Below, piece after piece: positions 3,001 through 40,075 of a stretch of DNA of 64,000 bases (position 1 is the first letter of the stretch; every line of letters starts with the position of its first letter). The notes beneath the pieces are model-generated. The model ran no database searches. It saw nothing but the letters and a program-made list of their open reading frames with translations, and was not told where the DNA came from. Where the stretch lies: NCBI GenBank assembly GCA_907165065.1, contig OU015525.1, positions 52,461,537 through 52,525,536 of the forward strand, in the 5' to 3' direction. The stretch comes from Caprimulgus europaeus (lineage: Eukaryota; Chordata; Aves; Caprimulgiformes; Caprimulgidae). Made by a program: the position numbers and the translations under genes.

Positions 3001-3948
3001 CATATCATCTGGAGTTTTATGCAAATCCAGAATGTGACATAAAGTCTAGTTATTTTCCCCAAGATATATGGTTGTTTGAAATCACACATTTAGAAACATT
3101 GTATTTAATTAAATTTCAGTGGAGAATAAGGGTTTGGGTTTTTTTTTTAAAATTATTTATTTTTTTGCAAATTAGTTTTTAGGACGAATACAAGGAATAA
3201 AGTTAAAGGTCTTTTCAAAGCCAGGCTCTGCCCAGCCCATTATGAATAGCAAAACTGAACGTTAGAGTCTTCCCTATGCTTTTGTACATAATACAGGTTG
3301 CATCAGAATAACTGGAGACTGGGTCTCATTATACTTCCTGTGGCATCCTGGGCCATGAATTTAATGGATACATGTATTTATAAGCTAATCGCACCATCAG
3401 CTGTGGCTTGAAACTATTTGCCCTCTGTGACCTATGTGGTAGATACATACACAAAGGTAAGACACAATAAAAGACTAACTTAAAAATGTTTACCTATGAA
3501 GTGCCTTTAAAAGAGACCCCTGGAAAAAAGAATGAAAAAAATGAACCCTACTCAGTAATAATTTTTTAAAAGTTAAGAGGTGACAGATAAGGAATTAGAA
3601 CAAAAGTATCCACCAAATCTTTCTTTAAGAGGTGCCTGAGCTGACTCCAGGGAAGATCTATAGGTGTGTTCTAGAGAAAGGTGAGCTGGTTGGGATAAAT
3701 GAGAAATAGAAAAAAAAAATCACAAAAATATAAGAGATAAATTTGAAAGTTTAAAATGCTTGGATTTCTTACCTGTTTTTGAACAAAATAATACATAACA
3801 ATTCCAAAAATAGGCCTCTGTTATTTGAGCAAGATAAAGAAATATCAATTGGAATAATTTACGAGGCAAAATATGCTCACACAATCTAAATTTACAAGGT
3901 CACCAGAGCTATTATTATTATTTCAAAATTTTGAAAGATCACATAATC
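1..3948. other. Unique AT-rich non-coding DNA
   Basis: I see no supported gene or recognisable mobile element here. Open frames are under 100 codons, lie on both strands and have no recognisable homology. Composition is AT-rich with short A and T runs (for example 3141-3168). It could be intergenic or intronic. Confidence 0.6.
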
Positions 3949-4414
3949 AGAGAGTCACAGAATGGTTTCCATCAGAAGGGACTTTCAAAGATCACCAAGT
4001 TCCAACCCCCCTGCCATGGGCAGGATCATCTTCCACTAGATCAGGTTGCTCAAAATTCTGTCCAAACTGACCTTGAACACATCCAGTGATGGGGCATCCA
4101 CAATTTCTTTAGGTAACCTGTTCCAGGGTCTAACCACTCACATTGTGAAAAATTTCTTTCTTATATCCAATCTAAATCTACCCTCTTTCAGTTTAAAACC
4201 ATTGCCCCTTGTCCTGTTACTAAAGACCCTGCTAAAAAGTTGGTCCCCATCTTTCTTATAGGCCCTCTTTAAGTACTTGAAAGGCCACAATAAGGTCTCC
4301 CCAGAGCCTTCTCTGTTCCGGGATGAACAACCCTGTCTCAGCCTCTCTTCATAGGAGAGATGTTCCAGTCCCCTCATCATTTTTGTGGACTCCTCTGGAC
4401 CCACTCCAGCAGGT
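3949..4414 (-). mobile_element. CR1 LINE, type C, 3' part (left half, split by an LTR)
   Basis: This is a minus-strand CR1 non-LTR retrotransposon. Reading the minus strand, it encodes the ORF2 C-terminus after the reverse transcriptase: [10 protein letters not shown] (4138-4404 frame), then a charged stretch, then [19 protein letters not shown], typical of CR1. The 3' untranslated tail follows, including the complement of 'ccatgggcaggatcatcttcc', and ends near 3949 in a degenerate 'cacagaatgg' end. The frame is interrupted and the copy is dead. The element continues beyond the inserted LTR at 5077-5261. It is 5'-truncated, as is usual for CR1. Confidence 0.93.
4410..4414. repeat. Target-site duplication, left copy (CAGGT)
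   Basis: The five bases CAGGT directly precede the TG of the LTR and are repeated at 5077-5081 directly after its terminal CA. The single pre-insertion copy fits the CR1 consensus 'ccagcaggtccatg' reading across the gap, which supports a clean insertion. Confidence 0.85.
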
Positions 4415-5076
4415 TGTCATGGTTTTTAGTTGGGACAGAGCTAGGTTTCTTTTTAGTAGCACAGAATAGTACTGTGTTTTGGTTTCAGCATGAGATTTGT
4501 TATAGGAAAAATGTTGATAATATACCAATGTTTTCAGTTGTCACTTGAAGTCAAAGGATTTAATGTTTTGCTAGCCCACAAGTGTACGGTCTGGGGGGTG
4601 AGGTGAGGAATATTTCAATAAATTAGATTGTCATTCGGATATGCCAATAGGATATTCCATATCATATAATGTCATGTTCAGTATATTAATGAGGGTCTCT
4701 CTCTTGTGGGGGTTCTCTCTCTCTGACTTTCCCTTAGGCTCTCAGTCTTCTGGGATGGTGGTTTTTGTTTCTTTATTGTCACTCCTCTAGGATTGTTATT
4801 GGAGAACAAGCCAGGCTTGGTCAGTGGGTGGTGAGCAACTGTAATGTGTATCACTCATTTGTATATTTTATTACTATTATTATTGTCATTATTATTCTAA
4901 TTATTATTAAGTTTTATTTTATTTGAATTATTAAATTGTTCTTATATCAACCTACAAGTCTCCTTAACCTTACCCCTCCAGTCCTCTCCCCTATCCCCTG
5001 GGTGGGGGCAGGCAGGGAGTGAGCGAGTGGCTGTGTTTGGCTGCTAGCAAAGTGCTAGCCAAGCGAAAGTACCACA
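4415..5076 (+). mobile_element. Solo LTR of an endogenous retrovirus (fossil), inserted in CR1
   Basis: This is a 662-bp long terminal repeat that starts TGTCATGGTTT and ends ACCACA, so it has the TG...CA termini of retroviral LTRs. It is bounded by a perfect 5-bp direct repeat, CAGGT, at 4410-4414 and 5077-5081. The CR1 sequence resumes exactly on the far side, so both ends are well defined. The interior has an AT-rich block with ATTATT runs (4860-4940) followed by a C-rich 3' part (4975-5005), as in the LTR family I recall from neoavian genomes. A 5-bp duplication fits ERVL-like (class III) elements, but that assignment is inference. No internal viral region is attached. It is a decayed fossil, younger than the CR1 it interrupts. 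Confidence 0.88.
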
Positions 5077-12400: not shown

Positions 12401-15059
12401 TGTACTAAACAAGTTCAATCTTGAATTTTACAAGAGGCTTCCATGGTTTTAAACTGATCTTTTTTAATCATCTTTTTTAAGGTTGCTGAAATCTTGCTCT
12501 GTATAGAACACATTTTATGTTTTAAATATATCACAGAATAACCATTACCACGTCTGTAAAGTCTCTCTTAGGGAAATGTTCCAAAGCTATGGAGAGGTGA
12601 AGAGTGCTGAAAAGTGAAATCTTATAATACTCTCAAGCTGGGGAGGTCGTTCTGCTTCTGAAGACTGGTAGTTTAGCTGAAGATTTTATCTTGACAATCT
12701 TTTGCTGTCTTTCTCCTCTTTATTTAGGACATTAGGATAGTAATTTTATATGCCAAGGTAATTAAATGTAACACAGTGAGTTATGATTGGGAATTTATAA
12801 AATGGGTAATAAAAAGGGTGATAGAAGGGCAACAAACTTCCAATTCTATTGCATAAATCTAGGCTTTACATGCTTTTCCATTCTATCTTGGTACACCTCC
12901 TGTTTCCAAACTGTACTGAAATATATTTTTCTAGATTACTCACAGAGAGTACTGTGACAAAGCATGGTAAAACAGTGTCAATTTATATAGGGTTGGACAG
13001 ACTGGTTACAACTCCTTGATGGTTACTACTGACTACCCAATGGGCAGCAAATCTAGCTTAAAATAATTTTTGTTGAATAAAATAAACTACAGATGAATCC
13101 TGCTGTCCATTAATCCATAGTCACAAAACACCTCTGCTTCCTCTTTAAAGATGTAATCATTATTTAAGAGAGTACCTACCCTACAATGATTCTATTCTCC
13201 TTCTTAAAGAGTATTTCTAAGATTTTAAACCACATTCTGGTTAACACAAAGGACATGCCCTTTCTCTTTGTCCCAGGTAAAACAACAACAAAACCTAAAC
13301 TCTGATTTTGTGGTAGAATGCACATATGCCACTTCAGAGAGACAGATTTCCCTCATTACATGAGAAAGAAGACTAAGTCCTTTCAAAATAACCAAAACCT
13401 CTCCATTTAAACCAAGTGCTTTTATAGAAACAGTCTCAGAAAAAAATGAAAGCAGGATGCAGGAGTACAACAAAGGAAGAAAGAAAAAGTAACTATCCAC
13501 CTGCCTAATCCACTCAACAATGCTATAGAACTGCATACTCAGAACTCAGTACAGTCTCAGAAGTCTTAAATTAGCAGCTGGCATTACCCAGTTTTAAAAG
13601 AAAAAGGGAATGAGGGGAACACAGAAAATGTCCTCTTTTATGCTTTCTCTTTGTTGAGAACAGATTTTGTATTGTACCTGAGCTATGGTTGAGTGACCTG
13701 GGAATCTAGAAGAGCATGCACTAAAGCAGGCAGACGAGAAACAAGAAGAACTGTGGAAGAATACTCGATAGCAGGAGAGACAGCAGAGAAATGCCAGGCA
13801 AATTAAAGCAGAGGAGAGAAAAACCCAACCCATTCTCAAAACACCAAGGTGATGTCTTCAGTTCTGAGATGACCAGCTCATGGGGAGAAGCACGGGCACA
13901 AGGTAGTCTTCCCAGGGAAGGCCCTAAGTATGCAAGTTCAAAAGCTAAAGTCTGTAACATTATAAAATCCTAAAGCCAACCAAAGGAAATACTGTAGGTA
14001 TTTTGCTTTGCTGTAGTAATGCTATTTTAAAATGGAATCTATATGATGTTTATGGGGACTGATATTTTTGATTTGTAGTTGAACTATTGTACATAATTGT
14101 TTTGTAATATAAAGCAAAAAAACCCAAATTGGCTTTAGCCAAATTGCAAAGTCCTGTACTCTAAGTGTTGATTTAGCCTATGCATATCATAAACTTTGAG
14201 GCCTTTTTACGTGATGTCTGATCATTCATTTTACATATTCAGCTCACACAAATACTGGAAATAAAGTATTTTGGATATTTGCTTTATAATGCCATCTCAT
14301 TAATTTTGGAAGAGATTAGTTAAAAGCTGGGGTTATCAGTTTATCACTAAGTTGTGAGAAAAATGTCATGAAATTAAAGCAGCATTCAGTTTTCACAGTA
14401 TTTTTCATGGAAGTAGAAGCATAAACATCTGCTTTGGTGCCTTTTTTTTTCAGGTTTCTCCAGGCTTGAAAAATAGTTATGCACCATAAATATCACTCTA
14501 TGAGTCATTTACTTAAGTGAACAGCTGCCTGCTAATTAGCCAAATGCTCTTCATTTTAAATCATACAGTTAAATGAACACACTGCAACAGGCACAAGAAT
14601 GCAGTACAGGAACTTTATTAAAATGATGAAATGGCAGAAACTTATTTCCATAGCAGCAAAAAACAGAGGTCATTTCCATACTCTGTATCTATGGGCCGAG
14701 ACCCATAATGATCATTTGTAATAGGCTGTGGATCTGAATATAGAAAACCAGGCAAACACCACAGAATCATGGCTAAATGTATGAAATGATACAGCTTTTA
14801 GACAACCACTGTTTTCCCCTAATTTAATAATGCCAGCTTTGTGTTTTCTCACAGAACTGCTGAACAGTGCTAACATCTGAAGAGTCAGATTAATAGGCAT
14901 TAGCAAGGATGGCTGTTCATGTTTACTGGAAAACTCTTCTGTTCTATAGTGATTTAGAAAGCTAATCAAATCTAGATAAAAGATGAAGTAAGCAGACCTT
15001 CCTGGAAGAAGCCAAAAGAAAACAAAACAAAACACCTTTTTCTAATTTCTGGGCTGCAT
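9490..15059. other. Unique AT-rich non-coding DNA
   Basis: No recognisable gene or mobile element. Frames of 60-115 codons occur on both strands (for example 9809-10153 and 14712-15035 on the minus strand) but show no family motif, codon pattern or splice context that would support a gene. Confidence 0.55.
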
Positions 15060-15501
15060 TGAGAGAAGTATGGCCTGCAGGTCAAGGGAGGTGATTCTAC
15101 CCCTCTACTCTGTTCTCCTTAGACCCCTCCTGGAGTACTGCATCCAGTTCTGGAGTCCTCAGTATAAGAAAGACATGGTAGAAAGAGTAGGTCCAGAGGA
15201 GGGCCAGGAAGATGATCAGAGGGCTGAAGCACCTCTCCTATGAAGAAAGGTTGAGATGGTTGGGGTTGTTCAGCCTGGAGAAGAGAAGGCTCCGGGAAGA
15301 CCTTATTGCTGCCTTTCAACACTTAAACAGGGTCTGTAAGAAAGATGAGGGCAAATTTCTAGAAGGGTCTTTTGCAATAAGACAAGGGGTAATGGTTTTA
15401 AACTAAAAGAGGGTAGATTTTGAGTAGATAAAGGAAGACATTTTTCACAATGAGGGTGGTGAAACAGTGGACCAGGTTGCCCAGAGAAGTGGTAGAAGCG
15501 C
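15060..15501 (+). mobile_element. CR1 LINE, type C, host copy (left part, split by a nested CR1)
   Basis: Plus-strand CR1. It begins at the 'tggcctgcaggtcaagggagg' region, passes through 'tggagtactgcatccagttctgg' (LEYCIQFW), then [36 protein letters not shown] (15218-15325) and 'aagacatttttcacaatgagg' (FFTMRVV-like). It is cut at 15501 by an opposite-strand CR1 and resumes at 15798. It is 5'-truncated and its frame is broken. Confidence 0.93.
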
Positions 15502-15507
15502 CATCAC
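15502..15507. repeat. Target-site duplication, left copy (CATCAC)
   Basis: CATCAC lies immediately left of the nested element and is repeated at 15792-15797. One copy restores the host CR1 reading 'gcgccatcactggaaac', matching the type C consensus 'ccccatccctggaaac'. The last bases are ambiguous with the inserted element's own 3' end. Confidence 0.7.
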
Positions 15508-15759
15508 AGAATCACACAATGTCAGGGATTGGAAGGGACCTCGAAAGATCATCCAGTCCAATGCCCCTGCCAGAGCAGGAACACCTAGATGAGTTCACAC
15601 AGGAAGGCGTCCAGGCGGATCTTGAATGTCTTCAGAGAAGGAGACTCCACAACCTCCCTGGGCAGCCTGTTCCAGTGCTCTGTTACTCTCACAGTAAAGA
15701 AGTTTCTTCTGATGTTTAAGTGGAACCTCCCAGTTCCTCGTGTTCCAGTTTACATCCAT
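15508..15759 (-). mobile_element. CR1 LINE, type B, nested and fused to U6 at its 5' end
   Basis: A 252-bp minus-strand CR1 3' fragment. Its sequence parallels 50136-50388 closely, including 'ggattggaagggacctcg', 'gaacacctagatgagttcac', 'ggaggttgtgg' (complement) and 'gttccagtttaca'. On the minus strand it codes the last ORF2 segment (NFFTVRV..WNRLP-like, ending near the 'gagttcac' block) and the 3' UTR. At 15759 CR1 homology ends and U6 snRNA sequence begins with no spacer, so this is the distal part of a chimeric cDNA. It interrupts the plus-strand host CR1. Confidence 0.92.
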
Positions 15760-15795
15760 AAAAATATGGAACGCTTCACGAATTTGCATGTCATC
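15760..15795 (-). pseudogene. U6: U6 snRNA 3'-end fragment fused to CR1 (chimeric retrosequence)
   Basis: On the minus strand this 36-base stretch reads GATGACATGCAAATTCG, then TGAAGCGTTCCATATTTTT. From memory of vertebrate U6 snRNA (…GGATGACACGCAAATTCGTGAAGCGTTCCATATTTTT), all but one base match; the difference is CpG to TpG type. The match starts inside U6 and runs to its terminal oligo-U, which joins directly to CR1. The first bases (GATG) overlap the target duplication, so the exact 5' limit is ambiguous by about 4 bases. No U6 promoter or 5' half is present, so it is not a functional snRNA gene. Confidence 0.88.
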
Positions 15796-15797
15796 AC
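15792..15797. repeat. Target-site duplication, right copy (CATCAC)
   Basis: Right copy of the 6-bp repeat enclosing the U6-CR1 composite. Four of its bases are also compatible with U6 sequence. Confidence 0.65.
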
Positions 15798-15941
15798 TGG
15801 AAACATTCAAGGTCAGGCTGGATGGGGATCTGAGCAACCTGATCTAGTTGAAGATGTCCCTGCTCATTGCAGGAGGATTGGAACTAGATGATCATTAAAG
15901 ATCCCTTCCAACCCAAACCATTCTTTGATTCTCAGATTCTC
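15798..15941 (+). mobile_element. CR1 LINE, type C, host copy (right part with 3' end)
   Basis: The host CR1 resumes with 'tggaaacattcaaggtcagg', then 'gaagatgtccctgctcattgc', 'cccttccaacccaaaccatt' and a degenerate 3' terminus 'ctttgattctcagattctc'. Together with 15060-15501 it makes one interrupted element. Confidence 0.93.
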
Positions 15942-38708: not shown

Positions 38709-39899
38709 AGAATCATTTGGTTGGAAGAGACCCTTCAGATCATTAAGTCCAACCATACCTGTGCAGTACTAAACCATATCTCTGAGCTCCTCATCTAGCC
38801 GTCTTTTAAATACCTCCAGGGATGGTGATTCAACCACTTCCCAAGGTAGCCCATTCCAGTGCCTGGTAACTCTTACAGTGAAGAAATTTTTCCTGATACC
38901 AAATCTGAACCACCCTTGGCACAACTTGAAGCCATTGCTTCTTGTTCTCTCACTAGTTACCTGGGAGAAAAGACACACACCTGCCTCACTACAACCTCCT
39001 TTCAGGTAGTTGTAGACAGTGATAAGGTCTCCCCTCAGCCTCCTTTTGTCCAGGCTAAACAACCCCAGTTCCCTCAGCCGCTCCTCATAAGACTTGTTCT
39101 CCAGCCCCTTCACCAGCTTTGTTGCCCTTCTCTGGACATGCTCCAGTGCCTCAATGTCCTTCTTGTAAAAACTGAACTCAGTACTCAAAGTGCAGCCACA
39201 CAAAGGCTGAATACAGGTGAAGGATTACTTCCCTGGTCCTGCTGGCCACACTATTTCTGATACAGGCCAGGACGCCATTGGCCTTCTTGGCCACCTGTGC
39301 ACACTGCTGGCTCATATTCAGCCAGCTGTCATCCAACACGCCCAAGTCCTTTTCTGACAGGCAGCTTTCCAGACACTCCTCCCCAAGCCTGTAGCGTTGC
39401 ATGGGGTTGTTGTGATCCAAGTGCAGGAGCTGGCACTTGGTCTTGTTGAACATCATCCAGTTGGTTGCAGCTCATTGATCCAACCTGCCCAGGTGCCTCT
39501 GTAGAGCCTTCCTACCCTCAAGCAAATCAACACTTCCACCCAGCTTAGTGTCATCTGCAAATTTCGCAATGGTGCACTCAATCCCTTCATCCAGATCATT
39601 GATAAAGATGTTAAACAGGACTGGCCCCAACACTGAGCCCTGAGGAATACCACTTGTGACTGGCCTCCAACTGGATTTGACTCCATTCCCCACCACCCTT
39701 TGGGCAGGGCCATCCAACCAGTTTTTAACCCAGCAGAGAATATGCCTGTCCAGGCCATCGGCAGCCAGTTTCTCAAGCAGAATGCTGTAGGAAATGGTGT
39801 CAAAGGCTTTACTGAAGTCCAGGTACACCATATCCACAGCCTTTCCCTCATCCACTAAGTGGGTAACCTTGTCATAGAAGCAGATCAGGTTAGTCAGGC
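38709..39899 (-). mobile_element. CR1 LINE, type A, 1.2 kb, with reverse transcriptase C-half
   Basis: Minus-strand CR1, the longest uninterrupted copy here. On the minus strand, 39472-39899 encodes [29 protein letters not shown], then [36 protein letters not shown] and the catalytic [12 protein letters not shown]. After a frame change 39178-39456 carries [35 protein letters not shown], and 38769-39203 ends with [63 protein letters not shown] and LDEELRDMV. The YLDFSKAFD (motif A) and FADD (motif C) metal-binding aspartates are present. Frame changes make it inactive. It sits inside an LTR, and its 5' end is truncated within the reverse transcriptase. Confidence 0.96.
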
Positions 39900-40075
39900 C
39901 AATGATAATAACAATAATAATGGAATATACAAATGAGTGATACACAGTGCAGCTGTTCATCATCTACCAACCAATGCCCATCCTGTTCCCACCTAGCAAT
40001 CCTAGAGGAGAGAAAATCCCCAAACCCTGATCCCAGAAGAGCAAGAGAGAGAATTTTCTGCATGAATGTGTATCT
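39900..40075 (-). mobile_element. LTR fossil, upstream part, resuming after the CR1
   Basis: The complement of the same LTR: 'aatatacaaatgagtgatac' and 'gctgttcatcatctaccaacc' match the reverse of 4831-4880 in the first LTR. 'aatcctagaggag', 'atcccagaag' and 'agagagagaa' are shared with the complement of 4735-4797. Similarity fades beyond about 40060-40075, so the far end of this fossil is uncertain. Confidence 0.75.

Follow-up and report, generated by a model that had tools for sequence, protein, structure and literature searches.

How did a piece of U6 snRNA come to be joined to a CR1 retrotransposon inside another CR1? The composite lies at 15502-15797 of the window, the 64,000-nucleotide stretch of DNA analysed here. 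Its structure, its recurrence in the genome and the ways in which it may have formed are taken up in turn.

Structure of the composite and its insertion site

The U6 segment occupies 15795-15760 of the minus strand and matches nucleotides 72-107 of U6, including the terminal U5, at 35 of 36 positions (BLAST E = 3.5e-13 within the window and 3.4e-8 genome-wide), in agreement with the 36-base U6 3' end with one difference described by the first-pass annotation. Human U6 served as the reference for all U6 comparisons, because an intact U6 gene of the species itself was not found. The sole mismatch is a C to T change within a CpG. In an Rfam scan of 3,501 bases, the best family for the segment is U6 (RF00026; 22.7 bits, E 0.016). 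Over the window, Rfam gives no match above threshold, the segment scoring 22.7 bits versus a gathering score of 44, and its E value in the whole-genome scan is 1.22. The score is low because just 36 nt, the last third of the RNA, are present.

The U-tail meets the CR1 at 15759 with a spacer of zero, and the sequence is CR1 from the next base on. Alignment thus bears out the spacerless join of the U5 tail to a 5'-truncated CR1 that had been read from the sequence. Specifically, the minus strand of 15502-15797 consists of GTGATG, U6 nt 76-107, about 250 nt of CR1, and GTGATG. U6 nt 72-75 overlap the flanking repeat, and 32 of the 36 bases are unambiguously U6. The architecture is that of a U6/LINE chimera: U6 lies directly upstream of the CR1 with both in sense orientation, the join falls without spacer at the natural 3' end of U6, and the LINE keeps its 3' end and is truncated at its 5' end. 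A U6/L1 chimera in the strict sense has L1 as its LINE; the LINE here is CR1.

The nested CR1 (15508-15759, minus strand) is a 5'-truncated 3' end; its final GTGAT is shared with the repeat copy at 15502-15507. It resembles other CR1 copies and carries a ATTCTGTG-type terminal repeat, which is typical of the 3' end of amniote CR1 (PMC5729268). At least 39 other matches in the genome show 91-96% identity to it (among the best 40 of 3372 candidates scored), and 29 of the 39 listed were retrieved for comparison at the join. All 29 have ordinary CR1 sequence at the join position, mostly GGACAAGGGGCA, with U6 absent; U6 is therefore foreign to CR1 and not part of a CR1 subfamily consensus; the opposite outcome had been named by the first-pass annotation as fatal to its reading. 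Because the bases preceding the join point in these relatives are mostly GGGGCA, no base is common to CR1 and the U6 tail. A longer sister in the window (50760 to 50144 or 50080, minus strand) aligns in the same way, with CR1 continuing upstream of the join and U6 absent.

At 11 of 244 positions, the nested CR1 departs from the majority of the 29 sisters. Compared with these copies, it also has a private 8-base insertion at 15732-15739 (minus strand). Elsewhere in the window, an open stretch at 39472-39963 (minus strand) contains a reverse-transcriptase-like FADDTKL motif and is apparently CR1.

The host CR1 lies on the plus strand, and matches to other CR1 copies in the window define its left part (15049-15501, start approximate) and its right part (15798-15932, end approximate). 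The sequence CATCAC, a putative target-site duplication, flanks the composite at 15502-15507 next to the CR1 3' end and at 15792-15797 on the U6 side (plus strand), and the sequence between the two copies is U6 and CR1 and nothing else. Aligned to three further CR1 copies of the window, the host CR1 is continuous once the insert and one CATCAC are removed. At the insertion point, one of these copies (3929-4412, minus strand) reads CATCACTGGA, as an empty site would, while the others read CATCTC and CATCCC. Both the enclosing repeat and the continuity of the host after excision had been noted from the sequence, and both are seen in the alignments. Four of the six bases of CATCAC also belong to U6 (GATG) and five to the CR1 tail (GTGAT), and the length of the duplication is therefore ambiguous. 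Of 200 shuffled flanks, 12 had a repeat at least as good, and CATCAC overlaps both ends of the composite. Taken alone, the 6-bp CATCAC duplication is weak and not significant.

U6 and U1 copies joined to CR1 in the genome

The window's own genome (1,177,730,439 bases or 1.18 Gb, 121 contigs) was searched for further U6 copies. BLAST with a 107-nt U6 query returned 12 matches at 9 loci. The Rfam U6 scan returned at least 37 hits, at least 8 of them above the cut-off (among the best 48 of 137,395 candidates scored), and added one locus, L049. A 24-nt pattern of the U6 3' end with up to 3 mismatches was found at 7 places, versus 1 for the reversed control, and added L091 and L092. Together, the BLAST, Rfam and pattern searches identified 12 U6-derived loci, which is a lower bound.

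Eight of the 12 loci run into sense CR1, and at six of these eight at most one base lies between. The search for U6 3' ends joined directly to CR1 that had been suggested for bird genomes shows, in this one genome, that the class recurs. Besides the window locus (U6 nt 72-107, no spacer), the close joins are those of L033 (nt 1-107), L037 (nt 1-106), L038 (nt about 15-106), L040 (nt 1-35, 34/35 by BLAST) and L091 (nt 72-107), each with at most one base before sense CR1. The U6 part of L040 was not called by Rfam at E 0.5, the segment being too short. The two remaining chimeras are decayed: in L092 (U6 nt about 75-107), CR1 similarity is 61% and begins in the T-run, and in L039 (U6 nt 1-71), it begins 22-30 nt after U6. 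The U6 3' end is kept at 7 places, 6 of which are CR1 chimeras.

The chance of finding sense CR1 within 1 nt at 5 or more of 12 loci is about 1e-15. The test takes its CR1 density from the window alone (17 CR1-like segments in 64 kb). This density may be a slight overestimate, as one seed probably covers part of another repeat; an overestimated density makes the test conservative.

Both the U6 extent and the CR1 break point vary among the chimeras. Differences from human U6 number 1/36 in the window locus, 6/107 in L033, 14/106 in L037, 12/86 plus gaps in L038, 11/64 in L039, 1/35 in L040 and 4/36 in L091. This range of divergence, about 3 to 17%, suggests that such events took place repeatedly and at different times. 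The flanking repeat of L040 is comparable to that of the window locus (11 of 200 shuffles) but lies 5 nt off, and the flanks of L092 contain a candidate repeat that matches at 8 of 10 bases. At L037, L038 and L039, no duplication stands out from those in shuffled flanks (152, 120 and 72 of 200, respectively), no clear target-site duplication is seen at L091, and the CR1 3' end of L033 was not found.

The composite was also considered as a propagated repeat and rejected: with up to 3 mismatches, the 36-nt U6 end is present at just 2 places in the genome, the second of which is joined to a different CR1. The many copies of one composite that characterise an snRNA-headed SINE are thus not seen.

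Weaker matches to U6 added little. Among the Rfam U6 hits below the cut-off, 22 of 29 were retrieved, the window locus included, and comparison with CR1 references gave no new sense CR1 join. The same Rfam search on control prokaryote genomes returned hits in 10 of 14, none above the cut-off, so that weak Rfam U6 hits mean little. Searching with a 22-nt U6 pattern yielded 22 hits versus 14 for the reversed control; eight of them are loci already retrieved, and the matches of this pattern are mostly chance. An exact 27-nt U6 pattern had 0 matches in viral contigs.

Four of the 12 U6 loci are not chimeras with CR1. L034 and L036 adjoin LTR-like repeats, L035 is flanked by U6 pieces, and no CR1 was seen at L049. 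The U6 copy of L035 (G000:C5:29412582-29412746) has additional fragments of U6 nt 1-36 on either side, one of which is inverted, so that the whole resembles a palindrome. The U6 of L036 follows an apparent extended antisense copy of tRNA(Lys). No intact U6 gene turned up in the genome, where the window chimera alone matches the 24-nt U6 3' end exactly; the gene may fall in an assembly gap or be masked. High-scoring U1 copies, in contrast to U6, number ten.

These ten U1 copies, at 160-163 bits on contig C2, are among 28 hits of an Rfam U1 scan of the genome and are taken to be genes. The 18 others were all retrieved, and roughly 250-300 bases of each were checked for sense CR1. Five of the 18 have sense CR1 within about 45 nt, the U1 ends being read by eye. 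In L080, U1 runs to about nt 96 and sense CR1 follows with no base between; in L089, it runs to about nt 72 and CR1 follows within about 7 nt. The distance is about 20 nt in L076 and 35-45 nt in L075, A-rich in part in both, and within about 10 nt in L078. Eleven of the 18 show no sense CR1 inside the bases retrieved. CR1 thus has partners other than U6, since some U1 copies lead into it as well. The first-pass annotation spoke of U6 alone, and U1 has to be added.

Between U1 and CR1, L075 and L076 have in common an A-rich stretch that ends in AAAAAAATTAATT, although they differ in where U1 and CR1 break off. Two further U1 copies, L073 and L081, were examined as U1-CR1 joins and rejected, since they match solely an LTR-like stretch of the window and give no match to CR1-only references. 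LTR-like repeat lies at or near 2 of the 12 U6 loci (L034, 1608-1869; L036, 1050-2290) and these 2 of the 18 U1 copies, and the repeat near snRNA copies is also present at about 4413-5076 of the window. L034, L036, L073 and L081 are possible chimeras of snRNAs with LTR elements.

Formation of the composite

Judged from sequence comparison, the segment at 15502-15797 is very probably a U6-CR1 chimera made in a single event by the CR1 reverse transcriptase, a reading to which we give a probability of about 0.93. A single event is favoured because the U6 3' end and the truncated CR1 follow in this order on one strand, without spacer and within one interruption of the host, and because the same arrangement occurs at other loci in the genome.

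Template switching during CR1 reverse transcription is the likeliest joining step, and we regard it as probable. Target-primed reverse transcription would start at the ATTCTGTG-type repeat at the 3' end of a CR1 RNA, and the enzyme would copy about 250 nt of this RNA. It would then shift to a U6 RNA close by, entering at the U-tail, and copy about 32-36 nt. Finally, the end of the cDNA would be joined to the target, perhaps aided by the common bases GATG.

Alternatively, the two RNAs may have been joined beforehand. RtcB would ligate mature U6 to a broken CR1 RNA, and the CR1 machinery would copy the fusion through the CR1 3' end. This order of events is possible, at clearly less than even odds. 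The U6 3' tail is kept at the join in 6 of the 8 U6-CR1 loci, no base is common to U6 and CR1 at the window join, and Law and Burns 2026 name ligation alongside switching as alternatives for U6/L1 (PMC13174262). Exact joins at the U-tail are predicted by template switching and RNA ligation alike, and the window junction does not discriminate between the two. Other loci have internal joins, namely at U6 nt 35 (L040) and nt 71 (L039) and at about nt 96 (L080) and about nt 72 (L089) of U1, the two closest U1 joins; ligation would require RNA fragments at all four, and a switching enzyme could make such joins more readily than could the ligation of mature U6 ends, which favours template switching. 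The jump of the CR1 enzyme onto U6 RNA proposed in the first-pass annotation is thus retained as one CR1 event involving U6, but template switching is not established as its step, ligation being a published alternative for U6/L1.

Two sequential insertions, a U6 fragment first and later a CR1 exactly at its end, are very unlikely at the window locus. A case of this kind may exist in L078, where the CR1 has apparent 8-bp flanks of its own, AATTATTT, one of which sits between U1 and CR1 by eye, so that this CR1 may be a later insertion. At the window locus, by contrast, the CATCAC copies enclose only U6 and CR1, and six of the 12 U6 loci have a sense join with one intervening base or none, far more than chance would give. 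Still less probable is that a DNA break within the host CR1 was repaired with captured pieces of CR1 and U6 cDNA: the short ambiguous repeats at the edges of the composite would suit it, but the complete CR1 3' end, the sense order and the recurrence of the same architecture argue against it. That the U6 piece is part of a CR1 subfamily or of a U6-headed SINE, for which the existence of U1-headed SINEs (SINEU) in crocodilians may be counted, is already contradicted by the 29 relatives, by the two places of the U6 end and by U6 extents and CR1 break points that differ between chimeras, and is hardly tenable.

Six chimeras retain the 3' end of U6, and in three of them U6 starts at nt 72-75 (window, 72; L091, 72; L092, about 75). 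Their CR1 break points differ, and L039 contains the complementary piece, U6 nt 1-71. For starts distributed uniformly over 83 positions, the probability of at least three in one given 4-nt bin is 0.002, with the bin picked post hoc and uncorrected. It is conceivable, though doubtful, that CR1 captures a discrete U6 piece whose edge is set at nt 71/72 by breakage or by a stop. If so, the boundary would reflect a specific U6 cleavage product, a reverse-transcriptase stop near the modified G72 of U6, or joining guided by common bases, GATG for example, which resemble the CR1 3' repeat. Joining at short identities offers a simple explanation of these starts. U6 and flank share GATG in the window locus, and GACATGC compares with GATATGC in L092; L091 has no clear repeat.

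Comparison with known U6-LINE chimeras and proposed CR1 template switching

Chimeras of U6 with L1, L2 and RTE were described by Doucet et al. 2015 (PMC4476161). That LINEs other than L1 capture U6, as the first-pass annotation suggested, was thus already published, for L2 and RTE. A close parallel is the platypus U6-L2 group (PMC4476161), in which a 5'-truncated U6 likewise precedes a short 3' part of the LINE and the LINE is primed from a 3' simple repeat, as proposed here. Duplications of 1-9 bp were reported for 72.5% of 40 platypus cases (PMC4476161); the putative CATCAC duplication would be of this size. The present chimeras differ in that the LINE is CR1, the host is a bird and U1 is also joined. 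Mammalian U6/L1 chimeras resemble the window locus in the 5' position of U6, the sense orientation and the often 5'-truncated LINE (PMC4476161; PMC13174262). Their U6 is typically full length (PMC13174262) and their LINE is L1, whereas the window locus has 36 nt of U6 and CR1.

For birds, Doucet et al. describe in turkey one 5'-truncated U6 with a CR1-like element; an unsequenced gap kept the authors from settling its structure (PMC4476161). The window locus likewise combines U6 and a CR1-like element in a bird, and here the joins and the insertion site are readable. Our search of the open-licence literature, outside which most subscription papers lie, found no resolved U6-CR1 chimera.

The reverse transcriptase of CR1 is believed to require the CR1 3' end (PMC5729268), and a template switch of the CR1 reverse transcriptase to a tRNA has been proposed for PittSINE (PMC5729268). 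The likeness lies in the CR1 enzyme and a small RNA; PittSINE became an active SINE (PMC5729268), whereas the window chimera is a single copy.

The finding is a resolved and recurrent CR1 version of the known kind of U6-LINE fusion. In one genome, six U6-CR1 joins with no more than one intervening base can be read, along with some between U1 and CR1, which extends the rule to the CR1 clade and opens the question of switching or ligation to testing in such genomes. The recurrence of the U6-CR1 joins implies that CR1 makes U6 fusions repeatedly, as other LINE families are already known to do (PMC4476161).
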